DNA of 64,000 nt from Tetrahymena elliotti 4EA. Lineage: Eukaryota; Ciliophora; Oligohymenophorea; Hymenostomatida; Tetrahymenidae. This document shows positions 5,182 to 62,201 of this stretch, in pieces (position 1 is the stretch's first letter; each line of letters begins with the position of its first letter). Below the pieces are notes generated by a model. The model saw only the letters and a list, made by a program, of their open reading frames with translations, searched no databases and was not told the DNA's origin. The DNA is taken from assembly GCA_000231825.2 (NCBI GenBank), contig JH720315.1, forward strand, positions 100,177-164,176. The letters run 5' to 3'. Position numbers and translations under genes: made by a program.

Positions 5182-5640
5182 TTTAAATTGGGGATGTAGG
5201 AGCATCAGAGATAGGATTAAGTTTAAGCAAATACACTCAACTTACAAATTTAGAATTTATCCTCTAGTAACTTTTACTTATTATTTTTAGAAAAATTTAA
5301 TTATAGTTTTTATTTAATGTTATTTTCAAAAATAAAAGTTATAATTAAATTGGGAATGAAGGAGCATCAGAGATAGGATTAAGCTTAAGTAAATGCACTC
5401 AACTTATAAATTTAAAATTTGACATGAGGTAACTTTTATTTTTTATTTTAGAAAAATTTAATGATACACTTTATTTTCTAATTTTTAAGCAATGATTAAA
5501 TTGGAGATGAAGATTGTAGTATGGCTGAGCATATTTCTAAACTCGATTCACTAAAGAAATTAACATTAGGCTTTACGCAAAAATAATTTTGTATAAGTAA
5601 ATCTTAAAAAACAACAAAATAAAAATAATAGAAACTATGA
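5182..5640 (+). pseudogene. 5'-truncated tandem copy of the LRR gene
   Basis: Three LRR exons homologous to the last part of the gene at 3313-4329 (unit spacing again 162 bp) end with the same tail and TGA at 5638-5640. The 39-nt first exon and second exon are missing. The first repeat has lost its conserved Cys (SKYTQ instead of SKCTQ). The offset between equivalent positions is about 1.31 kb, and the duplication includes the 3' flank. It could still be an internal part of an unrecognised gene. Confidence 0.65.
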
Positions 5641-34615: not shown

Positions 34616-37600
34616 TCAATTATGTAGCTAAATTGTTAAAAATATTAATATAAAAATAGATAAAAATTTTGTTTTTCCTACATTAGTTACACTCGTTGTT
34701 ATTGCTTGGTTTTCTGCAAAAATAAAGACAAATTAAATTTACTTAAAGTAAATATTTAAAGCTACCAACTTTGAACACTTTGATAATCCAGAACATAAAC
34801 CAGATGCTCCTTTGAAAGAAATATTATTTTAGCTTCTATATTTTATAAATATTTTATTGATATTTATAATAATGTTAATAATTGTTTAGATATTTAACTG
34901 TTTGATTATTTTTAATTAAATAATCTAAAAAATTAACAGTTTTTGTCAGAAATAAATAAAATTTGTTTACTATAATTAGATTTCTAAATTAATCAGATTT
35001 GGAATATTTTGCAAAGCATGACCAATATTCTATGCCCCATCTTCTTCAATTACTATGAATCTTATAAATTATCAATTAGAATCAGGAAAAGTTAAAACTT
35101 TACTATAAAATAAATTACTAAAGATTTATTGTTAAATATGAAAGAGTTTTGCTATCGGTCAAAGGCGAAAACAAGTTCTAAAAGCCTCTAGCACTGATTA
35201 TATTTCCACTTTATTTATATTATTAAAATATTTTATAATTTTGGCAAGAAAAGTTCTTTAGAAGAAAAATATATTTTTTAGGTTTTTTGGTTTACCTTAA
35301 ATCCATATACAATTTAGATAAATTTCCTAGCTTAGCTAAAGAGCTTCCCATATTGATTATTTCTTCATCAACTATTTTACTCTTTCTATTTGTAAAAACA
35401 TAAATGAATATTAAATATAAATTGATTTTAACAAGCATATTCTCTAAAATTGTTCAAAAATCTATCTCTTTTTTTATTTAAAATCTTACATTAAATTAAT
35501 GCTAAAACCTGAAAGATTTAAACAACTAGATAGACCCTCACATAAATATGTTACACCTTTTGTTCCAATATGATTTTAACTTTTTTAAAGAAATGAGTTA
35601 AAATTAAATCCTCTTTTTATCTAATTAATAATTCAATAAAAGCATGAACTGATGAACAGGTATAAATGTTACGGAAAACCAAGTTAAAGATCTCTTAGCT
35701 AGATACATTTAGATATACCTTAGCCCAATCCCTAAGTACCTAAATGGCCTATGTTGTTATAACTAAATATATTTTTTTAATTAAATGTTTTAATCTAGTA
35801 TAAAAACTAAAGAAATAATTTTAATAATACTTATAATTTTTTTAATATATTATTTAATTTCTGAAAAAATTTTCTAATTGATTTAAGAATTTAACTACTA
35901 GAATTCAATGCTCAAAAAAGTAAGTTCAAAACATTTAGATAAAGCCTAACCCAAGCCTATTGCTCCCTCATTTCCAATATTACAAAATCTATTAGTTAAA
36001 ATAGTTAATAGTATTAACATAAATTGATAATTTCTTATTTACAAAAAGTAATTTGAATAATTGTAATAATAATATTTATCCAAACCAAAAAGATATTGCT
36101 ATTTCAATAAAATTTAATGATTACGAAAAGTCTAAGACCAATGCAGATAAATTTAAACGATTTGCTATTCCAGTTGATAAATCAGTAATTCCTTTTGAAC
36201 CAATATTATTAGAGCTATTAGAAGTTTAAAATAAAATTTAAATTATTTTTTAATACTGTAAGTAAGTAATTAATTAAAAGGCCATTAATGTGTGTGTTAC
36301 CATAAATTTAAATTTAATTGCTTAAGGTTTTTGCAATTAGAGAGAAAAGAGCCTAAGATATGAGCTCCTGTTGAACTGATTTTGTTATATCTATTAATTA
36401 GTTATCGACATTTATTTTTAATTTAAAATAGAATAATCAAAATTTATTTTTTTTATAACAAAAATAGCTTTGAGGAAAGTTAAAATAATAAAGAAAAAGA
36501 ATTACTTTAAATTAAGACTTAAACTTTCTAGATTATTGCAATTAACTAAAGCTTATCCCAAATTTGGAACACTCTTATCACCAATCATTTAGTTTCTTTT
36601 TAGCAGATTTTAAAATGTTATTATTTAAAAAGGAATTATATTTTTTTATTATTCAGTTGTCTATTTTATATTTAAAATGGGGTATCAAAAATCTTTACAG
36701 GAAAATTGTTGTGTAAAAATGTTATTATGTAACCATCTAGCAATAAAATATTTAAAATATAAAAGAGTAAAATAAAAAACCCCCGTTATTATAAATTTTA
36801 TTTACTAAAAAGTACTATTAATTGAATGTATTTCTAATTTTAGGATTGATGAAAAATTATCTAAGTATTTTGAAGAAGAAATAAATAATTATGATAAAAA
36901 GTATACTTAAGATCAACTTAGAGGTTAGTTTCATCTGAAAATTAAAAGTTTTGTATCTTTTGCTATAATATAATGAAAATTAATTATAGTATTTCAAACT
37001 ATTTTGTTACATCTTCTTCAGGATTATAATATATCACTTGCTAATTCTATTTTTATTTTTATTTGTTACCCATTTTTATTATATCTACTTTAATGTATAA
37101 TTTATTAAAGTATTGTCTAATTTTATTCCTGAAGTGGGTAATCTTTTGATTACAAAAAACGAAACTCTATTAATTAATTAAAAAATTTTCTTAAGTACAC
37201 AAAAGAAAATATTAATGGGAAATATATTTTTTTTTGTTGATGATTTGTAGTAAAAATAACAATTTAAGTTATATCTTGTATATTATAAAATATAAAATGT
37301 ATGTATTCCCATTAAGTAAAGTAAATATTTATTTTCATTAATCATATTCATTTTAATAATTTAAAGTTTTTATTTTAATTTAAATTAGGGTGAAAAATAT
37401 TTTAAGAATTAATATTTTGTGAATAAATTTAAAAACGAAAAAATTTAAATTAAATTTTAATTAAAATGTTTTAGATTTAAATAAATTTAAAGAGCAAACA
37501 AAATAGTTGTTACTATTATGTTTTTGAATAAAATATAGAGTTAACAATAAAAAATAAGTTAAATATTTTTCTAATGAATATCAAGAAAACTTAGTTTTAG

Positions 37601-40342
37601 TTATGCTATTCTGATAGATCTAAAAAGTCTTTTTCTCAACATTGCTTTTTGGAATGTACTTAAAGTGTTCTAGCTTTAAAAGTTTGATTATTTATTTATT
37701 ATTAATTAGATTGTCTTGAAATTAAATAATTTACGATAAATCTAAGTTTAGATAATAAAGTTTGGTGTACTATCTAGCAATTATGTTCCCTAATGTAGAA
37801 ACATCCTAGAATCCAATATCATTATTACTTTTTAAAAAAATTATTTAATAAGCTAAAACAATTTAATTTCTTAAAAGCTATTAAAAGTGCATGGTTTATC
37901 ATTTAAAATTTTCCATTACCTAAAGAGTAAATAATCTAAAGAAATTTACTAAAAATGAAGAGCCAAGAACATAAGTTCACTACAATTTGAGACAGAATCA
38001 GCTAAATCTAGAACACCTTGTGATTTAATTTTATTATTCCTTTATTTATTTAGTAATAGTTTATTAAGTATCTTATTTTATTTTTGAGTATTTTATTTAA
38101 AATACAAAATAATAAAAATAAACAAAAAATCTAAAATGGTTTTATGATTGATCTTCGTATTTAAAAGTCAAATATTTTTACGAAAAAACAAGCTAAAGTG
38201 TATTCAGAGAAGGACATTTTGCTAAACCTTAACCTGCCTATGCTACTCCATCACAAGTTACTAAGTTTTTTCTTTTAATAAATTTATTAATAAAATACAA
38301 TCTAAAATAAATTTTAAAAAATTGAAATCTAAAAATGAGTGGTTGAACAATAAATAAAAATAATTTGATTACTCAAAATTAATTTCCAATTTAAATAGCT
38401 TTGGTATCTTAGCTAATCCTTAAGATAAATCAGAAATACCTTAATTCGATATTTTATTTTCTCTATTTTGAAATATAAAATGTTTAAGTTATTATTAATA
38501 AGTAATTAAATTAAAAAAAAAATTAAATTCTAAAGAATGATCATTCAAGAAACATAGTGGTTATATTTTTGCATTTACTTAAACCAATGCCCAAGCCTTT
38601 TGCTCCATTAGGCCCAATTTCATTTTCTCTTTTTAATGAATAAATTATTAAAAAATATAAAAAATAGGATTTTAAGGTTTATTAACTAAAATAAATAACT
38701 CAATTTCTAGCTAAAGCTTTTAAATTTTAATACAACACCCAATTGCTTCACCTATACAAATTGCTCCTTCATCCCCAATGTTTTCGCTTTTAATATAAAT
38801 TTTTCAATTAAAAACAAAAGGTAAATAATTTGAAATAAAATTAAAAAGTTTCAATACATTTATTTAAAAATTTTAATTAATTTTTTAAAGAAGAGAAATA
38901 AGACTTATTTTATTTTACTTTCTCTTTAAGTCTAGTTTAAGTTGTACAAGATTTCGGCATTTCGCTAATCCAAGAGATAAATTTTTGGCACCATTTGAAG
39001 AAATTTTATTGCAGCTTTTAATTTTATAATAAAATAAATTTATTAAAATCATTAAAAAAATAATATTTCAAAAAATTAATTTGATAAAAATTATTTTAGT
39101 TTAATTATTTTTTGGTTTAATTTTGATTGATAAAATAAAGTTACCTTAAATCTAAATATAAATCTTCAAGAATTAAGCAATTTGCTAAAGTTTGTCCAAT
39201 TTCTAAAGCACCATTTTATCTTACTGAATTATTTCTTTTTAAAAATTAAATTTAAAATAAAATAAAAATGACAATTTAATTAAATAAAATATTTATAGGC
39301 TAGAATCTTTCTAATTTAATCTAAATTTTTAATAGTTTTTTATTTATTTTAGAAATTTTTAATTTTTTGACCTCCTTACTTGTATTTTGCTAAATACTAG
39401 GTAGGAGGTTGGAGTTGATATGGTATTTAAATTTGAAATAATATACTAATAGTAGACATATTAAATAGTATTTAAATTTTATAATAAATTATAATATTTA
39501 CCCCATGGCATATTCTCAAGTTTTAAGTCTATCAAACTATTGCAAAGCAAAATTAAGAGTCAATAACCCATTATCATTTATATCATTACAGCTTATTAGT
39601 TATTAATGAATAAAAAAATTAATATTTAGAATTGATTTCAAATAAAATATTCATTTGTTGATACAAATTGTAAATTTTCATAAATATAGTCATTAAATAT
39701 CATATAAATATGAATATTACTAGAGGCAAATTTTTAAGCATTCTATATTCTTGCATTATGCTAAATCTAAGCCAAATCTTAATAATGCATCATTACAAAT
39801 ATTGTTTTGTCTATATTATTTATTAATTAATTGTATTGATAAAATTAATTTAAAAAAAATTATGAAATAATTTTAAAATTAATAAAATTTAAAAAAAACT
39901 ATTTTACTAGAGAAGTAATGTTAAATATTTGACTTTTTAGCATCTTGCTAAAGCAATACCTAATTGCTAAGTTCCATTAATTCTCAATATTGACCTCCTT
40001 TTTAGTTAAAGTAAAGTAATAACAAGAAAAATCAAAGGAAATTAAAAATTTTTGAAAAGAGAAAAAAGAAATATTTTAGTTCTTTAAAATGAAAAAAAAT
40101 ATATTTTAAATTTTTTAAAACAAGAGAAGCAATATTTTAATTCTTTAAATTTTCTAATTAATTTGATATGATTATTAATTTATCTAGCTTTACATTAAAA
40201 CAAGTTCAAGATTAGCGTGAGATGGTGGTAATGAAGAGCCAAAAAACTTTTTTTTTGCAAAAAAAGTTAAATTAAATGACTTGTAAGTAAAATTTAAAAT
40301 TACATCTTGTAGATTTTTAAAAACTGTTGTATTTTCAGCCAT
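34616..40342 (-). CDS. Long leucine-rich-repeat protein, one LRR per exon, possibly decaying
   Basis: Minus strand. Exon 1 at 40304-40342 is 39 nt (MAENTTVFKNLQD); exon 2 at 40194-40246; then about 20 exons of roughly 80-90 nt, each with one RNI-type LRR. Recognised repeats lie near 39960 (INGTQQLGIALARC), 39760 (CNDALLRFGLDLAQC), 39200 (NGALEIGQTLANC), 38970 (NGAKNLSLGLAKC), 38740, 38600 (NEIGPNGAKGLGIGLSKC), 38430, 38220, 37990, 37780, 36570, 36340, 36160, 35960, 35730, 35550, 35330, 35030 and 34790. The exon near 39500-39590 has an in-frame TGA, and 36.6-37.7 kb shows no recognisable repeat. It may be a pseudogene or have more splicing than I can see. LRR proteins of this kind are a large, expanded ciliate family of unknown function. 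Confidence 0.65.
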
Positions 40343-42825: not shown

Positions 42826-43384
42826 TTATTTATTAAATGCATCTTTATTTATTAAGTATATGTTATGTTATAAGAAAAAAATACAAAATATATTAATTAA
42901 TTCTTATTCGCAAGAAATTAAGAATTAAACTTATTTTTTATGGATAAAAATATATTAATGTTGTGTATTTAATCTTTGTTAAAATATTTATAAGTTTGTG
43001 TTTAGACAACTCAAATATGATTTTCAATTTAAAAATAATTTTGTAGTTGGTAATTTTTACAAGGTATTTAGTCAGTTATAGTTTATAGTCAATATTTAAA
43101 AGATATTTGTTGAGTGAGTATATGTGAAAATGATAATTAATTAAATGAATCTTTTTTTAATATTCTATTTGCTTACTTGGTTGCTGCTTTATGTATTTAG
43201 GTTTTATTATTTCTAACACATTTTTGGAGAAGGATTCAAAATATTAATTGAATAATTTAATAAGCAAAAATATTAGAGAAAAAAGTGAGTAGAAATGGAT
43301 TAAAAAAGTTAAAATTAATAAAAATTGAGATAAATCAAATAGAAGATTATTGAGCATATTTAAAATAGGCAAAAGATTAAGGAA
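42826..43384. other. AT-rich intergenic stretch
   Basis: Between the membrane protein stop and the kinase start; no exon or RNA gene recognised. Confidence 0.5.
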
Positions 43385-46300
43385 ATGTATGCGAGCAAGA
43401 ATATTTAAATGCTAGATAAGCAATAACTATTAGGTAAAAGCATTTTTATATTAGGTGATTGTTTTATTTTGTTGAGTAATCTTATTAATAGCTTTGAAAT
43501 CACTTTATCCTAAAATATATAATCAAGCAATTGGACAATAAAAATATGAATTACATTTAGAGTTTTTTATTAAAATTAAATATTAAGTTTAAGACATTCC
43601 AGATCAATAATTGAATTCAACTTAAAGCAATTTATATGAAAGTATGGTTGAGGAATTATCTCAAAAAGGATATAATGAGTTCAAGTTCTTAGGATAAGGA
43701 GCACAAGGATTAGTAGTTTTAGCAAAGAATAGCTTTAATAATAAGAGATATGCTATCAAGGGTGTTCATGTTCGTAACAAAAAAGGAATTGTTGATTAAG
43801 TTGCATCGAATTAAGTTGAAAAAGAAATTAAATTACTAAATACATGTAAAGGGTGTCCATATGTAGTTAACTTTTTAGACAGAATTGAAGGAACAGAGTT
43901 TACTTACTTAGTTCTTACAGAATGCTTAGGTAAAATGTTAACTAACACTTAATAAATACATTTCTCTATTACAAGCTAGCTAGCTAGCTAATTTTAAGAA
44001 ATTAAAAATAGGAACTCTTAATGAAATTATTTTAAGAAGCTAAAACAAAAAATTAAATGAGTTATCTGCAATAAAATATGCAAAGGATATTGCTGAAGGT
44101 CTTTACTATATACATGAAAAAGAATGTTTAGTGAAAGATTTGAAGATGGATAATATTCTAATAGATTACAATGGAAATGCTATTGTTTGTAAAAATATTA
44201 TTAAATCAAATTCTATTTTTAGAAATTTATGAAAAAATCAAAAAGCTGATTTTGGGTATGCAAACAATCTGACATAATATTCAGGATACTCTTTAGATGT
44301 TTACGTATTATCAACATTGATGAATGCATATAAAAATATTTATAAATTTAATGAAAAAAATAGAAAGGAAATATGTTGTGCTAAGCACCAGAATGCTATG
44401 ATCCAAATTAGTTTAATTATTCGACAGAATATTAAAACATAAATGTTAATGTGTAGACATTACCTAGTTCTAGAGTATTTTTATTCTTTATTTTTATCTA
44501 TTTTAATTCATAAATTATTTTCTAGAGTGAAGCATGTTCATTTGGTATATACAACTTAAATTTATGTAGACATGGATTAACATTTATTTATATTGATAGG
44601 ATATCTAATTTATACAATGATTTTTGGGTTTAACCCAAATTTGATATTCAACAAGCATAGAACTTTAGAGTATAGTCCTGATTTCTAAGATTTTGTTTAC
44701 TATAAGTAACTGAAATACATTATTGAAGGCTTAACTAAGTTCATCCCAAGAGATAGGTTAAAGATAAAGGAAGTTTTAATTTTATTAAAAGGAATTATTT
44801 GTTTTGAATTTTCTTTAGATAGTAAGTAGATTGAAGTCATTGATGATGAAGAGGCCCAGTAATTTATTAGATAGTTCAAAAAAGAAGTTGAGTTTGTCCA
44901 AGGCATTGAGAACTCATTCTACCCAATAGTGTAAATCATTAAATACCAATTAAGCTAAAAAAATACTTAAAATGATATAAAGTTAAAATGAAGAGGATTT
45001 TATATCATAACTCAATCAAGAAATAGAAGAGAACAAATAAAACAATGTAGATACTTTAATCATTTCATAGATTTATTATTTTTAATTAAGGATATTTAGA
45101 ACCTAATTATCTTAAAGTTGCAATAAGAAAAAAAGGGATTAGATGAAACAATAAATGATTTAATAACCTAATAAGAATAATTATTAAATTCATAACAGCA
45201 AGGAGTTAGTTAGTAATAGAAGGTAATAAATCTAGTTTAATAAGATAATTTAAATCTTTTCAAATTAAGGGAAAAAAAGATGATAAAAATTCATTGGCTT
45301 AAAATGTTGAAGGCAATCAAAGCGTAATTAAGGGAACATAGTAATTGAATTAATTATTTTAGATAAGCAAATAACTATATACTTTAATAAAAAGACCGTA
45401 ACTAATCTTTATTTAATTTAAAATGAAAGATTTAAATATTATGTAAAAAATTAGGGGGTAAAATCTAATTTTTTTTAATTTTTAATAATTAATTTAATTT
45501 ATATTTAAAAAAAAAGATAGTAAAATTATTATCATAAATAAGTCTTTTTGCTTATCTAAATAAATATCTTTTAATTAAGCATGTAAATGAATTATAAATC
45601 TATGATGATTTTTTAAGCTTGATAGAATTTAATTACCTAATTAAAATAAAAAAAGAACGTAAAATTTAGATTAATTTTAATTCTCTTACTTGAATGATCT
45701 TTTTGCAAATTAGTGAGTAATTAATATAAATTTAATTTATCTTAACAAATTAATTTATTTTTTTATTTAAAAAGATAGTAAATATTAGTTTGATCAAATC
45801 TGAAGAGTTATAAGCCTGTAATTAGCATGATTGAAGACAAATCAATTAACAACTATTTTTAATTTTCAAAAAAGATAGTAAGACATAACCACAAATTGAA
45901 AGATAAACTTATTTGATCTATTAAATAGCTAGTAAAAATTTTGGTGGGAATATTATCTTATTATTTTTCAACTTTAATTAGGATGTAAATATTTACTTCT
46001 ATTCAAGATTGAAAATAAGAGGTTACTTTTATGAATATAGCTAGTAAACAATTTAACAGAATTATTAAAGAAGATTAATTTATTGAATTATTATCTGAAG
46101 CAAGTAATATCTTTGTTAAGAAAAATTTAAATCATTAATGTCAAATAAATTAAAGCACGTATCATTATAGATAGTCATAACAATTGAATTCTTACTGATA
46201 GATTTTAAACTAACAAAAATTAGAAGGTAATTTTAGATTCATTTTCTTATAAATTTTATTAAGGTATTATATCTTAAATATAGAAAGTAAAATTTCATCT

Positions 46301-49300
46301 TACCTAAGCAAAGAAAGTCTTAATTTAAATTTCCAAAAAAGGAGGTAACTTTTTGAATTGCTTGTTTAAATAGTCTCAATAACTAAAAAATTATTTATTT
46401 GCTAAATAATAAATAAATAGACAGTAATGAATTTTTCCAGCTAAAGCTTATAAAAAGATGATTTACTCTTATTTAAAAAGAATGTAAGTTATCTAAGATC
46501 TAAAAAATTATCAACCTATAAAATATATTAATAGAGGGTACCTATTTAAAATTATTAAAAAATATATTTCATTTTAAACATTTAACAAAAATAATTTTGA
46601 ATTTTTATGATGCTAACTTAAATAATCGTTCCCCTATATAATTAGATAGTAAATTGATGAAGAAAGATATTTTTAAAGCTTAAATATATTTTTACATTAC
46701 TAGCATGTAAAAATAATTTTTATTGGTAAAATCTAATAGTTTTAAACATGAAAATAGAATGTAATTAATTAATTTTATTTTTTTTAATTTAAAACTATTA
46801 ATCAAAATTAAAAAATAGGGAGTAATTTTTTAGTAAAAATAAATTTTAAACGAAATAAACCAAAAACAAAAAGAAAGTAAGTAGTTTTGAAGATTTTAAA
46901 GCAAGTTAAAATAAAATCTTAACTGTGATTAACAGGGATATAACGTAAATGTTTTAGAAATAGTTAAAAAAGTAATAAATGTTTTGTTTATAATAGGAGA
47001 GAGTAACATTATTATCCAAAATATAAGAAACTTACTAAAATAATATATGATATACAGTTTGTAAGAAACACCTCATTTCTTCTTTATTTCAATATAAAAT
47101 ATAATTTTAGAAAGTAAATATTTACTTTTGAATTAAAATAAAGATATTAAAATAAAATAATTACTTAAAATAGGAAGTAAGTTTTTCTTTGAAGAGAGTT
47201 TGGATTATGTTTCTAATCAATTTTGATGGAATTTAACAGCATGTAAATTTTTAATCAGATTTTACCAAAAATAAAAATAAATTATTGTTAATTATTAAAA
47301 AAAGGAGGTAAATTAAATAATCATTCAAATTTGCACTTCTTAAAAAACAAATATATAATTTAAATGCCAAAAGAATGTAATTTTCTTAGATATTAAAAAA
47401 AAATCTCTAGTGTTAATCTTACTAAAAAGAATGTAATTTTATCACTTTTAATTTTCATCTTGAAAGAAATTCTTTTTATCAATAAGTGAGTAATTTTTTT
47501 GATCCTTCTTAGTTTGGAAGATTTTGACATTTTTGATTTACTTTTTACAGCTGCATGTAACATTTTTCTTTTATTATGTAGAATTTTTATTAAGCCTTTA
47601 TTAAAATAGGTAAATACTTTTAAAAATAAGTTGACTGATATCAAAAAGAGATATTTTTAAAAGGAAGTAATTATAGTTTTACATGGCGAAAAGATCTAAT
47701 CAAAAATTCTTTTTAAAATAGCCAGTACTTTTTTTCTTATAAAATTGGTATTTTAAAATTTTTTTACAGCTAGCAGTAACAATTTTCAGAATAAGAAGTA
47801 TCATAAATATTAAGATGTCTTCATTATAAATTAGCATGTGAGCATTTAAACTACTATTAACAAATATATAATTAAAATTAATTTTTTTAAATAAAGAGGG
47901 TACATTTTTGAAATAGTTTTAGAGAATTTCTGAATCTTATTTATAAAAAAAAGAACGTAATAATTAGATAATATAGCATAGTAGAAATTTAAACTAAATA
48001 AAATAAAATTTTGCATAGGGTGTAATCTTTTAAATTCCATATTTATTTTTTAATTTTATTTTTAAAATAGGTCGTAATGCATTTAATTACTTTTGATAAA
48101 AAATTATTAATAAAAAACGAATCTGTTTGATAAAATTGAATCATTCCTTATTTTAATATGTCAAATTTAACTAAATACTTATAGGCTGTAAATATTAAAG
48201 GCATTTTTAACAACAATCAGTTAACCTTTTAAATGTTTTAATAAAGGAAGTAAGCAATTAAAAAGCAGATTTAATTTGAAAATAAACTATGAATTTACAA
48301 TTTAATAGTTTGTAAGAAATAATTAGAATTTATGGGTAGAAATTGATAAATCTATATTATCATTTATGAATAGCGGATAGTAAAATTAAAAAAATGCTTT
48401 TTTTTAAATAAGACTATTTTGTTAATTTTAATAGGGAGTAACAAATAAATTTTAAGACATTCATTAAAAATGAAATAAATTAATCACTAGATTGTAATTT
48501 CTTTACTGAGTTTTGATGAAAAAATAGAATCTAATTCTTCTTTATTATCAATTAGGGTGTAATTTTTTAATCTTTTTTCAAACAAACTTAGTTAATATAA
48601 AAATAAAAATTAGGGAGTAAACACAGATCAATTAATTGAGAAGAATATTTATTGACTTTTATCAACAAAAAGTTGGAGGTAGATTTTTTAAGATTCAAAA
48701 TATGCTTTATTTTATTTATTTTCAATAATAAAAGCTCGTAAAACAATTTAAAATTTAAACCCAAATACTTCATTCATTTATTTACATACAGAGAGTAAAT
48801 AATTTAATTAATCTTCAAAAATTGGTGATTAAATCTTGTAAATTAAAATAGCAAAACGTAATTGCTTTAAGCTTAAAAATCATTTGAAAAATGACATGAT
48901 TTTGTGAATAAAAAAGATGGAAGTAAAATATTTGAATTTCTTTTAAAAAAATTTAAAATAATTTATTTTTAATAGGGAGTAAATAACAAACATATTATTT
49001 AATTACTAACTAATTAATCATATAAAAATGCGATTTACCTATCCTAAAATAGACCGTAACACACACATTGCTGCTAGCCATAATATAAATATTAATATTG
49101 TTAATATTTTAAAAAAAGAAAGTAAAATATTAGTCTAATTTTAAAAATTAATTTAATTCAATATAATTAACTTAAATAGTTGGTATTCTGTTTAAAGATC
49201 TAAAGATTATTATAAAAATTATTATATTACAAAAGCGAGTAAAATATTTATTTAAAAAAACATGATAACTAACATAAGATAAAATTTAATATAGATAGTA

Positions 49301-49595
49301 ATATTCATTTTAGAGAAAAAAGTCTGAAGAATTTTATAAACAAATCTTAATAATCAATATATTTAGCGAGTAAAATATAAATTATGTTTAAAAATAACTG
49401 ATAATTTTTTATGAAAAAGACTGTAAAATTGATTGAAAAAATTTGATAAATCTCCATAAAAAATCTAAAAAAGATTGTAAAAAGACTTCTTTATCCAGAT
49501 AAAAATGATATGAACTTACTTTATTTTAATATTAAGTTGGTAAGATTTTTGAAATGTATTTTCTAACTAATTAAAAAAAATAATTTAATAAAAGA
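43385..49595 (+). CDS. Protein kinase with coiled coil and micro-exon-encoded C-terminus, ~559 aa
   Basis: Ordinary exons: 43385-43433, 43492-43929, 44012-44188, 44246-44298 (or -44304), 44364-44474, 44526-44544, 44600-44772, 44819-45046, 45091-45222, 45270-45340; then about 67 micro-exons to 49539 and the last base of the stop at 49595. The sum is 1,680 nt (560 codons). Kinase motifs: GQGAQGLVVLA glycine loop (~83), AIK lysine (~105), VKDLKMDNIL catalytic loop (~203; His-Arg of HRD replaced by Val-Lys, but Asp, Lys and Asn kept), SDFGYAN (~223), APECYDP (~247), SFGYLIYTMIFG, and PRDRLKIKEIVSRLKSL closing the C-lobe. Residues ~370-470 are Q/E/K-rich and probably coiled coil. The last ~76 residues (from PGYITEYLYQIYN) come from micro-exons and match no domain that I know. 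A local frame would stop at TGA 44989-44991 if the 44773-44818 intron were retained. Confidence 0.75.
45341..49594 (+). other. Array of ~67 codon-sized micro-exons in ~55-nt introns
   Basis: The pattern AG-NNN-GTA recurs about every 60 bp. Micro-exon starts: 45395, 45455, 45517, 45580, 45656, 45714, 45775, 45815, 45875, 45929, 45982, 46041, 46101, 46156, 46224, 46284, 46342, 46421, 46481, 46535, 46646, 46704, 46758, 46819, 46874, 46936 (9 nt), 46997 (6), 47058, 47111, 47174, 47240, 47305, 47374, 47430, 47487, 47551 (6), 47664, 47722, 47770 (6), 47835, 47897, 47954, 48019, 48071, 48185, 48247, 48309, 48374 (6), 48435, 48491, 48556, 48614, 48673 (6), 48735, 48792, 48852 (6), 48917 (6), 48976, 49053, 49119, 49180, 49236, 49295, 49367, 49420, 49474, 49537; the rest are 3 nt. 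Introns begin GTA (one GTG at 47838), are mostly 45-76 nt and are all phase 2. Three are about twice as long (107-111 nt). Confidence 0.75.
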
Positions 49596-52068
49596 CCAAG
49601 AGTAAATAAAGAATATTGTTAAAAAGGACTTAATTAATTTTAGATTAACATAAACAAAAGTGATAAAGAGTAAATTTTTCATAATAAAAATTTCAAGATT
49701 TAAAAAAACTACATAAATTCTAATTATTTAAACATTTTAAGTCAAGAAATCAGGAAGGTAGGTAGATAATCCAAACTCAATTAGATCAAGGAAGCCAGTT
49801 TCCCAACAAAATATAAATAAAATTTTAATTGTATTTAATTTATATTTATATATTTGTAACAAGTCTTTTAGTTTTCTAAATCTTTTTTTACTTTCTGTTT
49901 AGTTCAATAAGTTGAATAAGTTGTATATAATTATTTTAATTAAATTTAATTTTTTCTTAATGCAAAATATTAAATTACAAATATAAATTATCTTTAACTT
50001 TTTAATACAATTTTAAATGTCTGATCCAATAAAATTTGTTTTTCATACAAAAAGTTTAAAAAAAAGAAACAAAAGATTAAAAAAATATTTTAAATTGGAA
50101 AAAAGAACTATGAAATATTTTTTTGTGATCAAATTTGATAATTACTTTTCAAAAATAAAAATCTGAATAAATAAACTAACTTTGAGTTTTTTTTCCAGCT
50201 ATCATAAACTAACTAATAGGAAAACTTTTTAGGTATAATTCAGTCTTCAATATATTTGATTTTTTTTGGTTTGTTTGGAAATTGAGAAAAAATAAAAAAT
50301 AGTTTTGGATTATTAAAAAATATCAAATTTGAGAGGAAAATAAGATTCAATTAAAAAATTTCGTTTTTAATTAAATTTTTCTTACTTTCAGATATTAATT
50401 TGCTGACTATTAATCACCAAATAACTTCATATTCAAATAGATTATCAAATAATAGTTAGATCAAAAAATCATACAAGATTAATTGATTTTAATAGAGTGA
50501 AAAAAGCATTTATGCATAATAGTTTATTTTTCTAAATATGATTTTGAACTTATAAAAACGTTATTAATTCTTAGCATAAAACATTTTCATTATTATTTCT
50601 AAGTTATTAAAGTTTCAAAACTCTTTTTTAATGATTGATTTAAGTATTTTCCTATATAAAATAATATTATTTACATTACTACTTTCTTTCCTTTTTTATT
50701 ATTAAAATAATGGCATTTTTTAAAGTGTCCAAACTCCTTTACCCTAAAATAAAAATTGACTAAAGTTAGATAAAAAATTATAAATTTTTAAATCTAAACT
50801 AACAAAAACAAAAATGTTTTTCTACTAATTTGCTTATTTGAGTTTAGAGGATATAGATTAAAAAGATATACATCATTAGATTATTTTCTATATGCCAGAA
50901 ATTAGCTGCTTTTGATGCTAAAATGATTAGGACCAAGAGCAGAAATATAATTATTTAAACCTAGTTTTATGAATTATCTAAGATTTCTTTGGTAATTTCC
51001 CCTTTCATTAACTTTTAATTCACTAAAATAAGCCATTTAACATTTTTATTGATATAAAAGGTAAGTCTACTTTCTAAATAATAAACTAAAGAGATTGTTT
51101 GTTTTCAAAAGTTTTATTACTATTATTTTACAATAAAAAAAGTAAATAGTGTAAAAAATAGCATGGATATTCTATTGATATGTTCATTTCACTGTATCTC
51201 CTATCATTTTAAATTGTTAACGTAGCAAAAAATACATTCATCATTATTGTAAATCTAATTAGTTTGAATGATTTACTTTCTTTGCTGATAAATACATTTT
51301 CAAAGTTGAATGCTTTATCCTCGAAATATGATACGAGTGAAATTTATTTTTACAGCTAAAGAATGTATTTATTTATTTATTTATTTTGTTATCAATTAAT
51401 GCTACTCATTGGAGATTTATTGAAGAAAGAAATTTAGATAATCTAATAAGCATTTTTACTGATCTTTTTTTTGTGATTATATTAATAATTCAGGTATTTT
51501 AAAAGACTAAGTTCCTATTTTTAATTTAATTTTACTCTTTTTAAATCCTTCCCTCTAATTTTTTACAAGTCCAATTTAGAGTATAGAACCTGAATACAAT
51601 TATTCTATAATTGCTCTCTCTATTAATAAAAAAATAAAAACAAAGAGATTAATTTTAAAAGGGAGGCTAATATTTTCAAAGTTTGCTAAAGTGTTAAATT
51701 CCTTAATTCAATCAAAATAAACATAGCTTTAATTTTCATGGCAAACAAGAAAGTTATTTATTCCATTAAAATTTATAGAAATAGTTTTTTTTAAAATGTT
51801 ATTTTTATTTTATAAAATTATTTAACTTTAAAAAGGCATACAGGCTAGGCTGCAAAAAATTAAAAGAATTTAATTATTTTAAATGGTGGTTTTAATCAAT
51901 TTCCTTCATAAAAAATAAGTTGGGATTTTGTTTTTTTGTATTTTTTGTTAATTAACAAATTAATTGCTTTTGCATCAAAATCCATTAAATTTTAATTAAA
52001 GCAAAAAAAGTAATAATTTTTTAATTTTGAAAACAAATAATATTATTGAAAAATAAAAAGTAAAAAGG
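49596..52068. other. Long AT-rich intergenic region
   Basis: No exon, RNA gene or clear repeat recognised; short ATTT-type tracts near 51,365-51,385. It holds the 3' end of the micro-exon gene and presumably the promoter of the next gene. Confidence 0.5.
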
Positions 52069-55000
52069 ATGAGCTTGTTTAAAAATCTTCCTTTTTTCTT
52101 GGCTGTTTTGTGTAAGATTATTTTTTATGAAAACATAAAATCATTATTTATTTAAATTAAAAGGGATTTTCAGCATGCTGAAATATTCTTTATGTCTAAG
52201 ATATAGAATATTTACTTAATCCTCTGATTGTTCACTAGGAGCTAATAGTTGTGGATTTGATTAAGGTTCTTAATTATATACTGATTGTAGCGGTTATTAA
52301 TATATTGAAAATGGTTCAACAACCTTAAATTTTTCTTAGGATTTTAGGTAAAAAATTTATTTTTAAAAACTAAAAAAATATTTACAAATTTTTAATGATT
52401 GAAGTTACTTGGAAATAAGACATATCTACTTTAATTACGATATTATTACATTTTCTACAAGTACTCCTAATTTTACAGTTTGCTTTTATTAGTAAGCAAA
52501 CAAATGTAAAAGTTATACTAATCTTTCTGGAAATTTAGTTTGTACAGATAGCTAAAGTAGGAATGTGTTAAAATCAACTGATTTTATTGATGTAGGCCCT
52601 AGTTCTCCTGTAGTATAGCTTTAAATAGAATTTACTTCAAATATATAAAATGTTAAAATCAGTAATATTGTAATTGATGCTGATATCAATACTTCTACTT
52701 TAAATGTAAATTTTTTTCAAAATCTTAGAAAAAGATTGACCATTCTTTTCAAAATTAAATTAAATAAATTAACTTTCAATAAAATAAAATAAATTAACTT
52801 TCAATAAAATAAAATAAATTAACTTTCAATAAAATAAAATAAAAACAAAATAAATTAACTTTCAATAAAATAAAATTATTTTTATTTTATTTAAAGGGTA
52901 TCTTTGGTTGTAATTCATGGGATAATACAAATTGTTAAGCTTGTTACATAGGTTTTAATTAAATTACACTAAATGGAAAACAAATTTGTTAATTATAATG
53001 CCAAAGTGGTAAATACCCTTATATTTCAGATAGCACTTATTTTATTTAATATTGTAGATCTTGTTCTTCAAACTGTTTGAGTTGTACAAATAACTTAAAT
53101 TGTTTGACTTGTGACTCTAATTATGATAAAATTAATACCAAATTAGGAGAAAATTATTGTTTTTTAAAATGTGATCCAAAATAATTTAGAAATAGCAACA
53201 ATATTTGCTAAAATTGCATCTAAAACTGTAATTAATGTGTTGATAGTTAGACATGTTAAACTTGTGATTCTCTTTATGATAATGTTACTATTTCAGTTGG
53301 AGTAAATGAATGTAAGTTAAAATGTAATTCTAATTAATTTAGAAATAGTAATAGTGATTGTTAAAATTGTATGGCAGGATGTCTTTAATGTATTGATGGG
53401 TAGAGTTGTTAAAATTGTGATTCAAGCTATGATTAAATTATTGTTTCACCAGGAATGATTCAATGCTTTCAAAAATGTGCTTCTAATTAATTTAGAAATT
53501 CTAATCTTCAATGCTAGAACTGTGTGCTTAATTGCACATCATGTGTAGATGGGGATAGTTGCTCTTCTTGTTAATCTTAATACTAATTTTCCTCTTCAGC
53601 TAAATATTGTGTACCTATATGTGCTTCAAATCAATATCATGATTCTAACTTTTTGTGCTAAAATTGTGTATAAAAATGTGATTCATGTAGTAACGGATAG
53701 AGTTGTACAAGTTGTTAATCTGGATACCAATTTTTATCAGCAGCTAATTATTGTGTTTTAATATGTGGAGTAAAAAAATATTATGATTAGAATTTCTAGT
53801 GCTAAAATTGTGTTTAAAATTGTGACTCTTGTCATGATGGACAAAGCTGTTCCAGTTGTTAGAGTGGATATATATTCTCATAATAAGCAAACTATTGTGT
53901 ATAGATTTGTAATTCAAATTAGTATAGAGATCAAAACTATATTTGCTCAAATTGTGATTAATCATGTAGTACATGTTAAGGACCAGGTATTAATAACTGT
54001 TTATCGTGTAAGTAAAATTGGTTTTTTTTGAATTATCGATGCTATTAAGTGTGTCCAAATAATTATATTGTTGCTTAGGCTTCTTAATGTGTAGAATGCC
54101 AAAAATACACATCATAATGCTAATAATGTGCTGCCACATGTAGGTCTTGTCAATATGGAGACAAAAACATATGCTTAGACTGCTATTAAACTATGAATTT
54201 TTAATAACAGAGTTAAACATGTATTTGTAAAAACAATATCGACAACAGAAATATATTTTATGAATGTAGTCATGAAAATGTCGCTGTTGTTTAGGCTACT
54301 TTATCAAGCGATTCTCCAAAATTAACTCTAGAATTTGGAGTTCCTTTAGTTTTAATTTAAAATATTAACTGCAATTAAATTTTTGAGAAAAACACTCTAG
54401 ATTTATTGGGATAATCTACTTGCATAATAAATTCATCATAGATTGTAATTTCTCTAAGTAAAGAATTTTAACACCTCATTTTTATTTTTCTCTCAAAATT
54501 TTAAATTAAAACTTTAGAATTTAAATCTAATTTTTAAAAAATAAAGAAAAATAATATTTACAATAATAGGTTAAGATTCATTTATAATGAGTAATAACAC
54601 TCTATCGTTCAAGAACAATATTCTTTAGTATGAATATAATTAGAATAATAATATTAAGATTGACACATTTTATTTGGCATCGTTTACTTAACTAATGAAT
54701 TAAAGTCCTTAAATAAATTATCAGCACTCATAAACACAAAGTACCTGTAATGATGCAATCTTCAAGATATTGGCAAATAACATTTTGAATGATGCAAAAA
54801 GAGGTTTTTATTCATTTTCTTGGAGTATTAGTACTCAACCTAATGTAGATTAATCAACACAGGCAAAGTTAAATTAAATTATATAAAATGCAAATTAATT
54901 GAATAGTACAACATTATTAATTAACAAATATTTAATACCTGATGGAACATAAGTTTCTGCTTATTTCTCATACACTCTTAAAATTAATTACTAGGGAGTT

Positions 55001-58000
55001 TTAAATTTGTAAACATAGATAATGAAGGAAAAAGAAATAATTATTTCTTCAATTCAAAATAGATATCCTCCGATTTACAGGTATATTTACTTTAAAATTG
55101 ATTAATTTTAATATATTTATTACTCTAAAATATAGATATATGGATTTATCTTTTTACTTTGCATTTTAAGTTCAAACTTGTGATTAAGCTGGTCCTACTG
55201 CTTTTATAGAGCCTTTAGATATTAAAATAACCTCTTAAATTATGCCTGACTTAAATAAAATTATTAACTCATCAGCTTCTTAATAAATTTAAATAGATGT
55301 TAATAAATATTTAATACCATTTAACACACAGTTTGATCTATTAGTAAAAATTTTCCAAATAATTAATTCACTAAATAAATTTTCTTAATTATGAGAAACA
55401 AGCAAACAAAAAACAAACAATAAGAATTTTTGTAATTGAAAAATGTAATAATAGAATAATATTAGGATAGATTTTTTATTTTTACTATCCTTCAATAAGA
55501 AAAAGAGTATTTTGTTAAAGAAACTTTGATTAATTTTAAACAAATAAATTTTCATTACAAATAAATATGATTAAATAACTAAAAAGTTTCTTTTAAAAGC
55601 AAATAAATAAATAAATTATCTTTAAATAAATAAAGGTTGAAGTATCTTTGCACAGTAATTAAGCAATAAATTAGAAGTCTTAGATTTAATTTACTCCTTA
55701 GCTTTCTGATCTTTTAGTTTATATACAAGGAGGAGAGAGCAGATAGTTTAACTATAAAAAGGAAATAAGTTTGACAGGAATAGGGCGAGATTATGAAGTT
55801 GAAGATTCTAATTCACCTTAAGGTATCAATTTAAACTGGGAATGTAAATCACTTGTAAAAAATAATGGAGATTTTCAATGCTATGATTATTTAAAAAATG
55901 TTGTTAATATACCTTAAAATGTGGCAAGTATTTCAATTGCTGGATCAACTTTCTTGCCTTATTAGACTGTTTAGTTTACATTTACTGGCAAAAAAGATAC
56001 AAGAGAATCTACAAAAACACTAGTAGCAATATTATCTGAAGTAGATATACCACCTTTAACAATCATGATTGAAAAATAAACTTAACTAGTTTAAGTAAAT
56101 ATGAATGAAGACATTAATGTATCTATTGAATATGATACTAATATTTCTTCTGATACTCTTACGTATGCAGGGGCTGTTTTATATAACAATGAAGTTGTTG
56201 GAACAATTAAATTTGATTTCTATAAAGTTAGATTTAGAATTTGGGATTTTTTTAATAATGTTTTACCAATAAATCCAGTTGTTCAAGTTAGATTTACTGT
56301 TTACAATCCTGCTTACATTATGCCAAGTTTGAGCATTACGAACTTTAACATCAATTTACCTCCAACAAATTGTTAATTTACTGTTACTCCTTCAAGTGGA
56401 GAAGCATTTGTGACAGTTTTTTAAATTTAAATGATTGGATGCTATAGTAAAAATACTCCTTTAACATATTAATTCTTTTACTACACAAATTCTAATGATT
56501 TCAAAGAAGAAAAAACTCATCCAACTAATATTTTAAGAAGAATAATAATAGATTAAACTACTGATTAATAATTTAATACAGTATTACCTTCTGGGAATCT
56601 TTTAATTATGGGATAAGTCATGGATTCTTTTTTAGCCACTTTCAATTCAACTGTTTAAGTTACTATTAATAACATCTAATAAGGTGAGTAATAATTATTG
56701 AATACTATTGATACAGCTTTGTAGATCAACACTTAGCAAATAACCAAATAAAAACTACTTAATTTATGCATTTTAGGAGAAGAAATTTCAAAAAACATTC
56801 CTATTTATAACTTGAATTCTGTGAATTAAAGAAAACCATAGCTGATTGAATCAATTATTAGCTTGTAAAATAATATTCCCACAAGATCATTCTTGCCAAC
56901 ATTTTCAAATAAAGTAATATCATAGATTAAGTTTTCAATACCTAATTCTTAGTAGAGCTCCAGCTAGAATATTTTAGACTAGATCTTCAACATTTTATAG
57001 AAGAATTAATAGATTAGTGAAACTAGCAATTAATTGTAAAATAATAACAATATTGATTTATAGAATTTAGTTGATTCTTTTAAGATGCTGAATTCAACTA
57101 CTTAATCCTTCTCAGATAATTTAATTAATTAATAGATGAATATTTCAGATAAAATATGCAATGACATGAGCAAATTATCACTACCAAATACAGGAGGATT
57201 ACAATTAAAAGGAAATCTGATTTCACTAAATTGTTAATAAATTACATAAAAAAATCTTGAATAATATGTTATGCAGTTTAATGACGATCAATAAACATAA
57301 ACTCAAGTAACAAATCTGTATAGCATAGAATATTCAACATACAGTTAAAATCCATATATTTAAACACCTGCATTCTAGAACTACACATAGGAATTAATTA
57401 AATATGATCCTTAGATTTAATTAACATAAAATAAAGTAATTAAACCTACTATTATTAATTTATAAGCAAGTAGGTATCTTAGTGATACAGCTAATACAAA
57501 TTAAAGCTATATTTTTAAATTTCCTAATGCATTATTATCAAAAACTAATTAAACATGTCTACAGAAGTTAGAAAATACTTGGTCCTCTTCCAATTGTTAG
57601 ACTGTTAATTTTAATTAGATGAATAGTTATTATTGCTACTGCAAAAAATTAAGTTCTACAACAGTGACTGATGATTTAGAGTCACTTATTTAAAATAAAA
57701 ACTTACAAACAGCATTTGGATCTTAAGGAATAGAGAACTTATCTAATTTTTCTAATTTTTATAAATTTGCTGTTGTTTGGATTCTTTTTTCTACCACCAT
57801 TCTGCAGATTGGTTTATATTTTTTTGGGCAAAGATTAGATTAAAAACAAATTCTAAGTGGAGATGTACAAATTCTAAGTGGAGAGGTACAAATCAAACAG
57901 CTTGATAAAGTTTATCCTATTTAGAATGAGAAGGAAAAACAAGATAATATTTCCATTAAAATCAATGAAGAGACTTCCAAATAAGGAGAAGATCAATAAA

Positions 58001-59034
58001 TTTTATAAGATGATAATGAAATGAAAATTTAATAATAAATAAATGATAAAAATCGTAGAAAAGAGTCAGAATTAATGTATATCTAAGAAATAAATATCGA
58101 TGAATAATTTGAAGCTAACAAGATAGCTAGCATTTAAAAATAAGAAGATAATCTATTAACAACTTAAAAATCAGAAAATAAAATGTTTTCAAATTAGAGT
58201 GATAAATTAATATAAATTGATTAATAAAATAATGGTTCAGATGACTATAATTTGCAATAATAAAATTTAGAATAAACACAAAAGTAAAGCTTCTAATTTA
58301 CAAATAGATTATAATTTGATAATATAATATATAAAACACCTCAGTAAAGTGCTCTCTCTAAATTAATTTCTCAGTAATCAAACAATAAAGATAATTAAGA
58401 ATAAGTTAAATAATCATCTGCAAAATCTTCAGAAGACACTAAGAATTCTTTGGATGATTTGTAAAATGTAATCTTAATTGATAAATTTAATAAACTTATT
58501 AGTAAGGGCTTGTTATTTTAATTACTTATTTTCCATGATTTCTTTAGTATATTTTATATTTTTGATGATAAAGTATCTAGAAGTATAAGATTTACCTTAT
58601 TTTATTTAAGAATAATACACTCTTTAGCTATATCAACTATCTTTGACGAAAGTTATACTATTGAAATGAAGATTGTCATATCTCTAATAAGCTCAGTTAT
58701 TTTAATTGTAGGAGATTAAATTGTTACCTTATTCCATAAAATTAAAAAGGTTGGACATCAATTATCTGCTATAATCATAATCAGCCTTCTTTTATTTTAC
58801 TATTATATTATTTTATCTATTACAAGTGGATAAGAACCAAGCACATCAAATTTTAGAATCGTTTATTTCTTGTTGATGGTAGGAGTTGATTTTTTTGTAA
58901 TGCTAAATTTGAATTCTTTGTTAAAAATAAAATTAGTAATTGAAAAGATAAAGTATAAAAATAAAGACAATCTTTTTAGTAAGCTTTATTCACTCTTAAG
59001 CTTAGATATAATTCTTCTAAATCTAAATATTTGA
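52069..59034 (+). CDS. Polycystin-1-like Cys-rich/REJ/GPS membrane protein, ~2,053 aa
   Basis: Seven exons: 52069-52109, 52207-52347, 52405-52705, 52897-54457, 54570-55080, 55136-55343, 55636-59034; total 6,162 nt, divisible by three, to TGA 59032-59034. The first intron's borders are the least certain. Signal peptide MSLFKNLPFFLAV. Residues ~170-600: about nine furin/EGF-like Cys repeats of ~47 aa (CQNCVQNCDSC, then GQSCSSCQSGY). Residues ~640-1100: REJ-type region, including VYIQGGESRQFNYKKEISL and NLNWECKS. At ~1560-1605 is a GPS-like motif (CLQKLENTWSSSNC, then YYCYCKKLSS). A TM follows (~1632, FAVVWILFSTTILQIGLYFF), then a charged Q-rich loop, then about four TM segments near the end (FHDFFSIFYIF, IVISLISSVILIV, LSAIIIISLLLFYYYIILSI, VYFLLMVGVDFFVML). 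This order recalls polycystin-1/REJ receptors but lacks a recognised PLAT domain. Probably a cell-surface or ciliary protein. Confidence 0.8.
52755..52876. repeat. Four ~25-bp tandem repeats in an intron
   Basis: AAATAAATTAACTTTCAATA plus AAATA is repeated about four times within the intron between exons 3 and 4 of the Cys-rich receptor-like gene; the last spacing is slightly longer. Confidence 0.85.
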
Positions 59035-59769: not shown

Positions 59770-61923
59770 ATGACATCAGAAAAATCTTATTTTAACTGTT
59801 TAGAAGATGTAAGCTACTTTTTTATATTCTATCTTTTAAATTGAAACTTTTTATTAATAGTTTTTAAACTCTTCTTTATCTTCTCACATTGAGCTTGAAA
59901 TTGACTTAAGGTACACTATTTTATTAAATATTATTTAGATTTCTCAATGTTATAATTACAATCATTTTAAATAGCTAATATTTTAAAAAAATACATGAAT
60001 TTTTATATAAAAAACTAAATCTTTTAAATTATTATAACTTCAAAATTGTTAAGTTCATTTATTATCGTTTAAATTTTTGAGCTGAGTTAGTAAAAATAAT
60101 AATAATATATTACAATAGTTACTAATAAATGAGTAGAGAGGAGACTTAAAATTTGATTTCAGCTATTGAAAAATGTACTTTCTGCTCTAATTTCGTACTA
60201 TTTTTGAGGTAAAATTCAATTTTTCTTTGGCTAATTTCAAGATTGTTCTCAGAAATGTAAAATAAGATTAAAATTTTATCTTATTATTTACTTCCTAAGT
60301 TTAAAGTTTTTGAATTTGAAGAATAGTTATTTTATTTTACTAATATATTTATTTTAACAAAGTGATAATTTATTGGATGTAAATGGAGCCTAAGCCTTAA
60401 GCTCTGCCTTAACAAAATTAAATAAAATATAATAATTAGAACTCTATTTAAAGTAAATAAAATTTATTTCGAGTATGAATAATGTTAATAACTAAACTAC
60501 TCCCTCTCTGAAGCCTAAAAATTGATATTTTAAATAGTGTAGTGAAAATCAAATTATTGATGAGGGTGTTGAAGCATTAAGTAATGCTTTAATAAGTTTG
60601 GAAAATGTTAAAATTTTAAAATTAGATCTCAGGTAAATTTATTAGAAACAATTAGATTTATTTCATTTATAATTTAAAATTTGAAATCTAAAAAGTGATA
60701 ATCAAATAAGTGGATCAAGTTGCATTTCAGCTTTAAGTTCTTCACTAAGAAAATTTAATAACTTGTAAACTCTAATACTATCATTTAGGTGAAATATATT
60801 TTTTACCATACAATTGATAAACTTCAAACTTCAAAAACTAAATTGAAAAGCTATAATTAAATTGGAGAAATTGGTGCTTCAATTTTATGCTCATCAATTG
60901 CAAGCTTAGTTAATCTAGAAATTTTAGAGCTCTATCTTCGGTAAATAATTTTCTTTGAAATTAATTTTTAGAGATAAAAAATACTTAATTTAGCATAAAT
61001 GCTTTATTTATGTTTAGATTTAATTATGTGCTAATTCAGATGATAAAATTATTTATTTATTTTTATAAGTTTGTAAAATAAAACTCTAATAATTTTATAA
61101 TTTTAATAGTAGTAATTTTATTGGAGATTAAGGTAGTCAGTCTTTAATTTAAATTGTCAAAAACTGCAAGAAGCTATCTAATTTGGATATTTTCCTGAGG
61201 TAAAATTCAATTAAGTTAAAAATACTCTTCTTTTTTTACTATTTACAAAATTACTTTAAAAAAAGTAAAAATAACATTACTAAGTAAGGTGCTTAAAATC
61301 TATTTATTGCTTTGTAAAGCTGTATTAATCTTACAAGTTTGACAATTTCTCTTAGGTAAAAGTGTTTCTATCCAATTTTAAATAATTTTTCTTCATTTAT
61401 TTTTAATTTTACGAATGTTAAAATTAAATCAAATTTTTACCATATAAAAAGTGAAAATGACATAGGAGATGAGTGTTTATCTAATCTAGGTTTTACTTTG
61501 ACTAGTCTTCCAGCATTATTTGCATTAACTTTATAATTTAGGTATAAGACAAATATTTAATGAACTATTTATTTATTCATTCATTCATTTTTATTAATAT
61601 TTTTGTTACTTTTTTCAATCAATAAATGCAATTTTAATATTAAAGCGAATGTTAATTAAGCAAAGAAGGAGCATATGCTTTAGTTAATGCTTTAGCAAGC
61701 TGTTCCATTTTAACTAATTTTTATCTTTATTTTAGGTAAATAATCTATTATTTAATAATATTCTTTTTCTTATTTACAATTTTTTGATTTTTTAATCTAA
61801 CTTTCAATAATTTGAAAATTAATCATAAAAAGTGACAACAATCTTAATTAAGAGCATTAGAATAAGCTATAAAATAAAATATTTAAGTTTAAGAGATTGG
61901 TAGTAAATGATGTATATCTATGA
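59770..61923 (+). CDS. Leucine-rich-repeat protein, one LRR per exon
   Basis: Exon 1 is 39 nt (59770-59808, MTSEKSYFNCLED), then FLNSSLSSHIELEIDL, then about nine exons of 80-95 nt, each with one RNI-type LRR and each beginning with Ser split across the intron. Examples: NGAQALSSALTKL (about 60390), DEGVEALSNALISL (60560), GASILCSSIASLVNL (60880), GDQGSQSLIQIVKNCKKL (61125), KQGAQNLFIALQSC (61290), GDECLSNLGFTLTSL (61460), KEGAYALVNALASC (61660). The last exon near 61830 departs from the consensus and runs to a TGA at 61921-61923 or is frameshifted, so the true end is uncertain. Same family as the loci at 3.3 and 34.6-40.3 kb. Confidence 0.7.
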
Positions 61924-62201
61924 TCAATTCAAATATAATATAAAATGCTGTTTCCTTAACATATTAAAAATAAATTGTTTTTTTATATTACAAAAATATA
62001 TTGAAAATATTTATAATAAAATCTATTATGACATATTGTTAAAAAATGAAATGTGATGGTATATAAATACTTAATAATTGTTTATTAAGTTATTAATTTT
62101 TTATTGTTTATGCTTCTTTCTTATTTTTAAAATTTGACATGCACTAAATATAAAAAAAATTCAGCAGCAAAAAAATTAATAATTTAGAAAAGATAACATA
62201 A

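Follow-up and report, generated by a model that had tools for sequence, protein, structure and literature searches.

Can a segment of protein be built from exons that hold a single codon each? This question is raised by a locus in a stretch of 64,000 nucleotides (nt) from Tetrahymena elliotti 4EA (contig JH720315.1, positions 100,177 to 164,176; the whole stretch is called the window below), where the last large exon of a protein kinase gene is followed by 4.2 kb of DNA in which very short units recur between AG and GTA. The original prediction, made from the letters of the window, was that the kinase gene continues here as about 67 codon-sized micro-exons, and our curated chain contains 67. 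It is highly probable that these predicted exons, after removal of about 68 minimal introns, would spell a 76-residue C-terminal tail of the kinase in phase 2. The array is real and the tail probably translated; we infer the splicing, the order of intron removal and the translation of the tail from DNA sequence. The view of the locus as a single odd gene segment was too narrow, with arrays present at 21 of the 24 other loci that were fetched.

Predicted micro-exons downstream of the kinase exons

The array region was scored from 45,341 to 49,600, on the forward strand unless stated otherwise. It contained 60 matches to AG-NNN-GTA, and the minus strand contained one. When the number of nucleotides between AG and GTA (k) was varied from 0 to 15, the counts were 6, 4, 2, 60, 1, 0, 7, 1, 2, 2, 2, 1, 1, 2, 2 and 1; only the spacings of 3 and 6 stood out. 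The other 57 kb gave 20 to 49 matches per k, with 36 at k = 3, and 1,000 dinucleotide shuffles of the region gave a mean of 2.7 and a maximum of 8 at k = 3, indicating that the recurrence of AG-NNN-GTA units over 4.2 kb had been recognized correctly. Under a stricter splice context (no AG in the stretch ahead of the acceptor, with a donor 45–79 nt upstream and an acceptor 45–79 nt downstream), the region retained 48 units at k = 3, 6 at k = 6, 1 at k = 9 and 5 others; outside the region, 2 were retained at k = 3.

The curated chain leads from the kinase exon ending at 45,340 to an exon at 49,595 through 67 micro-exons (45,395–49,539), of which 59 are 3 nt, seven are 6 nt and one is 9 nt long (46,936–46,944). 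The first predicted intron of the array spans 45,341–45,394 (54 nt) and the last 49,540–49,594 (55 nt). In the curation of the raw list, the k = 3 matches at 46,878 and 47,000 (the latter nested in a 6-nt unit) and the k = 9 match at 48,327 were removed, and the unit CAT with a GTG donor (47,835–47,837) was added. The expectation that every internal exon would be 3, 6 or 9 nt long held for the 67 units; it failed at exceptions that include a zero-length exon at 47,609/47,610.

Chance or low complexity was rejected as the source of the array on the basis of the unit excess, the strict context and the blind walk described below, each compared with its controls. Tandem duplication or an introner family was also rejected, with a mean similarity among spacers of 16.81 compared with 16.68–17.11 in ten shuffles; an ancient origin by tandem duplication or of the introner type may nevertheless lie behind the array. 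A regular spacing near 60 bp would also be expected of a DNA-level repeat or a protein-binding array that merely resembled splice sites. That explanation is hardly credible to us, given spacers that are mutually unrelated by the same similarity measure, unit lengths of 3, 6 and 9, a depletion of AG ahead of the 3' sites and an intron rule that is the same as in the kinase introns.

Splice grammar of the spacers

The array spacers resemble the upstream kinase introns, with GTAA at the 5' end and A-rich positions −6 to −4. Array donors carry A at +3 in 99% and at +4 in 91% of cases, and AG is nearly absent from about −6 to −20 before the 3' sites. The 20 nt upstream of the 3' AG were free of further AG in 59 of 68 introns, compared with 15 of 48 internal AGs. 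The 68 array introns have a median length of 57 nt (56 lie within 45–62 nt) and GT..AG ends, in accord with the short introns of Tetrahymena, for which an intron length mode of 56 bp is published (PMC5014332). The reading of the spacers as introns is thus supported by their likeness both to the neighbouring kinase introns and to the published short introns of Tetrahymena.

We also walked the region blindly by a rule with one parameter, which leads from a GTA to the first AG at a distance of at least 45 nt and from there to the next GTA. From 45,341 to 49,594, 66 steps gave 55 exons of 3 nt, seven of 6 nt, one of 9 nt, one of 0 nt and two failures; the failures, of 52 and 65 nt, fell at a 37-nt intron and at the GTG donor. 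In 774 control steps elsewhere, 3-nt exons were met 9 times and the median was 60. When the zero-length exon was included, 68 of 69 introns had their 3' site at the first AG that lay 45 nt or more into the intron, compared with an expectation of 39 from AG density and a maximum of 56 in 200,000 simulations. The lone breaker of this rule is an irregular point at 45,778–45,817, where the 37-nt intron (45,778–45,814) precedes the unit CCT. Among the kinase introns, seven of eight obeyed the rule at 44 nt.

At 107, 108 and 111 nt, three of the intron-like gaps are roughly twice as long as usual. The shortest of them (47,557–47,663) consists of 53 + 54 nt that meet at AG|GTAAAT, the site of the zero-length exon. 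The 108-nt (46,538–46,645) and 111-nt (48,074–48,184) introns contain no AG before their ends and look as if a unit had been lost at each. A search for a branch-point motif in the array introns gave nothing convincing. Past the predicted stop, the blind walk goes on along the forward strand of the window at 49,595–49,757 with exons of 7, 9 and 16 nt, 7 being the first length that is not a multiple of three (3n); the 3' untranslated part may therefore be spliced too.

The kinase gene and its predicted tail

All exons of the kinase gene lie on the forward strand. An N-terminal kinase-family exon at 43,253–43,432 (approximate ends) was found by tblastn with residues 15–72 of protein P0001 (58% identity). 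The gene model starts with exon A (43,593–43,929; 5' end provisional) and continues with exon B (44,012–44,188), exon C with the SDFG motif (44,246–44,304), exon D with APE (44,364–44,474), the 19-nt exon E (44,526–44,544) and exon F (44,600–44,930; 3' end set by homology to P0004). Exon G (44,983–45,046; start set by homology) encodes a coiled-coil-like region and is followed by exon H (45,091–45,222) and by the last large exon (45,270–45,340), which ends in phase 2. The exons upstream of the array encode the Pfam kinase domain PF00069 (expectation value [E] 1.7e-30). At E ≤ 0.001 the kinase has 36 relatives, 33 of them named Tetrahymena, and it belongs to a large family expanded in this genus; the best relative is 57–65% identical.

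The predicted tail aligned with no relative in a 14-sequence alignment, and a comparison with solved structures gave one match at E 0.53. A 5-fold beta-flower (PF21785) was considered for the tail and rejected, as it scored 15.4–15.7 bits against a cut-off of 38, and two of nine shuffled tails also matched weakly. Matches of the tails of other arrays all fell below the cut-off. Searches for related loci gave two weak, unrelated kinase matches (22% identity) in viral_contigs and none among 80 stretches of genome_contigs.

Arrays elsewhere in the genome

The genome (90 Mb in 134 contigs) was searched with a pattern of three chained units, which gave 658 matches compared with 52 for a reversed control; when the pattern was anchored on the unit GGA, the counts were 23 and 1. 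We fetched 24 stretches from among the matches listed. Chains were present at 21 of these loci (26 chains with 815 micro-exons, 6 to 84 per locus) and on the opposite strand at none; L013, L022 and L034 had no chain. The window and the 21 parsed loci together contain 310 of the 658 pattern matches.

Because the chain parser favours 3n exons, the parsed 3n share of 805 of 815 is no evidence for 3n lengths, and raw spacing counts serve instead. In 55,697 bases of array, these were 653 at k = 3 and 112 at k = 6, compared with 26 and 13 on the opposite strand. The counts at k = 0 and k = 1 were also raised (44 and 78, compared with 18 and 17), probably in part as a result of units like GAG and AGN, in which an AG is itself present.

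On the same strand, a kinase precedes the array at L011, L012, L020, L021, L025, L026, L028 and L033. The arrays at L016 and L027 are related to kinase tails and are possibly tails without a kinase. Those at L014, L017, L019 and L023 lie in other genes; their open phase is 0, in which every 3-nt exon would coincide with one codon. The remaining loci either belong to other genes or are unassigned. One-codon exons are therefore likely to be a recurrent gene design in this genome, as judged from these predicted chains.

Reading phase and paralogous tails

When the predicted exons are joined, phase 2 stays open over 76 codons until a TGA across the last junction, which the opening base of the terminal exon (49,595) completes; 2 and 3 TGA occur in the remaining phases, in agreement with the original prediction. 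An open phase 2 together with a stop at the last junction occurred in 1.9% of unit-order shuffles. The middle base of the 3-nt units is G or C in 21 of 59 cases, compared with 17% in the spacers (p 0.0005) and with 20 of 86 at chance AG-NNN-GTA sites elsewhere, the latter difference being marginal (p 0.08). The window taken alone supports the phase weakly.

We therefore set the window tail against 16 arrays in every one of the nine phase combinations, with BLOSUM62 scores and 300 unit-order shuffles for each. The scores were 103 for L033, 72 for L012, 70 for L028, 57 for L025 and 55 for L011, and none of the 300 shuffles reached any of them, although these shuffle figures are mildly optimistic because nine phase pairs were searched. 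Phase 2 was paired with phase 2 in four of the five. For L012 the other eight phase pairs scored 18–31, and 72 was reached by none of 2,000 shuffles. The L025 and window tails share the end NCEYELF. Ten other compared arrays showed no relation to the window tail. Because the window tail resembles the tails of five other arrays, the paralogues settle phase 2 as the predicted phase of the window array, and the proposed junction after 45,340 in this phase finds support from outside the window.

Conservation of splice sites and unit bases

Of 231 pairs of array loci, the 11 with at least eight matched exons were summed; these pairs are not independent. Exon length was equal in 360 of 379 matched exons, and the bases of the splice sites were identical at 815 of 875 GT and 818 of 876 AG positions (about 93%). 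Identity was 74% for intron bases (19,570/26,415) and 66% for unit bases (862/1,299). Within the units it rose from N1 (265/433, 61%) through N2 (286/433, 66%) to N3 (311/433, 72%). These are codon positions 3, 1 and 2, so that the order fits that expected of phase 2; the L011/L012 pair departs from it.

These comparisons suggest that the predicted splicing is conserved and that the encoded letters are not strongly so. With unit bases below introns in identity, strong purifying selection is not seen. We read this as fast evolution of the predicted tail while the splice sites are strictly maintained, and not as proof of positive selection, because AT-rich intron alignments overstate identity.

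Several observations weigh against a translated tail in phase 2. Within the window, phase 2 was open in 37–38% of unit-order shuffles, the codon likelihood of the real unit order was reached by 78% of 5,000 shuffles, position composition slightly favoured phase 0 (−238.4, compared with −240.1), and TGA within the introns was without phase preference (26/24/22). The published 1.3-fold underrepresentation of 3n introns was not seen among the array introns (24 of 68 are 3n, a small sample). Tail motifs were absent from the last 40% of the 36 retrieved kinase relatives, and a search among 5.8 billion proteins for homologues of the tail gave 11 candidates, none at E ≤ 1. Among the paralogues, the 7–9 kb upstream of L016 and L027 gave no kinase match at E 0.01; the L025 match requires another frame of that locus, because its parse contains odd-length pieces; the L027 tail scored 43 against the window tail, a value reached by 2 of 300 shuffles; and the parses of L011, L025, L027 and L028 include odd or long exons and in-frame TGA. 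Furthermore, all 11 pairs had a lower identity in unit bases than in introns, with p < 0.05 in three.

The lack of better conservation in unit bases than in introns, the weak phase evidence within the window alone and the in-frame TGA in the L011 parse would suit an array that is spliced without being translated as a useful tail, that is, a decaying or untranslated 3' region in which 3n lengths are a relic. Under that explanation, however, one would not expect the window tail to be similar to those of five other arrays, the order N1 < N2 < N3 to fit phase 2, exon length to be kept in nearly all matched exons, or other arrays, such as L014 and L017 in phase 0, to be open in one phase. We consider it quite improbable and retain the translated tail in phase 2.

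The zero-length exon and the proposed order of intron removal

The predicted zero-length exon of the window (AG|GTA, 47,608–47,612) has intron-sized DNA on both sides (53 and 54 nt from 47,609/47,610), as is characteristic of a recursive splice site. A zero-length exon follows the same residue in the window (NMRIIDC|MNHQHIGT), L011 (NMKIWDK|DNLKYFG), L012 (NMMIEDL|NNDKYIGT) and L033 (NIPLFDW|DLNKEIG), and the parses of L025, L027 and L028 have none at that residue. The window spacers could not be aligned with those of any locus at the threshold used, so the shared site is not due to recent copying alone. At L016, L025, L027 and L033, a second zero-length exon coincides with the stop or closely follows it, between introns of about 71–74 and 67–70 nt.

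Zero-length AG|GTA sites within the array, and tiny exons that resemble ratchet points, could also mean that the whole 4.2 kb is one intron removed by recursive splicing, whose 3-nt units never reach the messenger RNA. The units, however, carry a tail that matches paralogues, and the 3n length of nearly all of them would have no reason if they were discarded. We regard this explanation as very improbable, and the retention of the units as exons remains our preferred reading.

If the units are retained, splicing would probably proceed by intron definition, each donor pairing with the first AG about 45 nt or more downstream. Spliceosome footprints make simultaneous assembly across an acceptor–donor distance of 3 nt unlikely. 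Because the acceptor and the next donor in the array are only 3 nt apart, neighbouring introns would probably not be assembled together; their removal would be sequential or would alternate between sets. With each splicing step, the next GTAA would come to lie beside the growing 5' exon. The zero-length exon, if used, would require recursive splicing, and because it works only in that way it would be natural in a stepwise chain; its presence in the window and in three paralogues fits stepwise splicing.

It is also conceivable that units are alternatively included, one gene giving many tail lengths with the frame kept. Since almost every unit is 3n, skipping would leave the frame intact, and the double-length introns indicate that units may disappear. 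The splice sites, however, are uniformly of the GTAA type and not weak, and the paralogue tails align over their length; we think alternative inclusion unlikely.

In its broadest form, our proposal would be of a genome-wide class of codon-by-codon genes, in which single-codon exons follow one another in runs that reach about 70. Their splicing would depend on a processive ratchet that removes one minimal intron at a time, zero-length exons included, so that the spliceosome would in effect put the coding sequence together one codon after another, with tails that grow and shrink by gain and loss of splice sites and not by changes in an open reading frame (ORF). We put this forward tentatively, as a proposal that may well hold but is slightly more apt to fail.

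Other features of the window

Ciliate-code ORFs on the forward strand matched TLDc at 6,690–8,048 (E 2e-19), a PHD-like zinc finger at 15,266–16,399 (E 7e-13) and REJ at 55,102–59,031 (E 8e-35). A cysteine-rich ORF at 52,684–54,630 (+) contains 144- and 153-bp tandem repeats and weakly matched a growth-factor receptor. Transfer RNA and Rfam scans of the window found none.

Comparison with known systems

Splicing factors are thought to need a longer exon stretch than 3 nt. If spliced as predicted, the array would present dozens of sub-minimal exons in a row at an acceptor–donor distance of 3 nt, and an organism amenable to bulk culture would allow direct tests of the limits of exon size, of the order in which introns are removed and of recursive splicing. 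Protein segments of this kind are missed by gene-finding and read-mapping software that sets a lower limit on exon size. That unit bases change fast while splice sites are kept also raises the question of what the architecture is for.

With 67 predicted units of 3–9 nt, the array has the many consecutive exons of at most 30 nt that characterize micro-exon genes in general. Micro-exon genes are already known; a literature search that excluded preprints and missed most subscription papers returned no array of single-codon exons, and we therefore call the array a new, extreme form of micro-exon gene. The micro-exon genes of schistosomes have symmetric (3n) runs of exons of 6–36 nt and encode secreted proteins. 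The array shares with them runs of short 3n exons, in which skipping keeps the frame, and differs in that 59 of its 67 exons are 3 nt long. Recursive splicing at zero-length exons, of the Drosophila Ubx type, subdivides long introns. The AG|GT junction between two introns and the stepwise removal, as proposed for the array, are alike in both cases, whereas the array site has 3-nt exons and minimal introns as its neighbours, and 3 nt would remain in the product at most units.

That single-codon exons can be spliced is indicated by isolated cases of 3 nt, for example in Ncam and Drosophila TnT (PMC8042270); these stand between ordinary exons and not in runs. The same genus has tandem arrays of 90-bp phase-2 exons encoding leucine-rich repeats (LRRs), as has been described (PMC6564038). 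Those arrays resemble ours in having tandem exons of a fixed 3n length in phase 2. Their repeat units are alike in DNA when young, whereas the micro-exon array combines 3-nt exons with unrelated spacers, and its exons of 3, 6 or 9 nt set it apart from a type defined by exons of exactly 90 bp. Runs of 90 nt between AG and GTA that read as LRR-like repeats, of this published type, occur in the window at 3,693–5,430 (+), 34,800–40,000 (−) and 60,360–63,700 (+).

The bicycle genes of aphids, which encode fast-evolving proteins, contain numerous tiny internal exons, nearly all of them in phase 2, with about 17 exons on average, and one megacycle gene has more than 100 micro-exons (PMC9168663). Their exons are small without being reported there as single codons, and they are insect salivary effector genes, whereas the array forms the tail of a kinase gene and its introns are minimal. 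The likeness is one of architecture: many tiny exons, a fast-evolving protein and, as the similarity among the paralogue tails suggests for the window array, internal exons almost all in phase 2.

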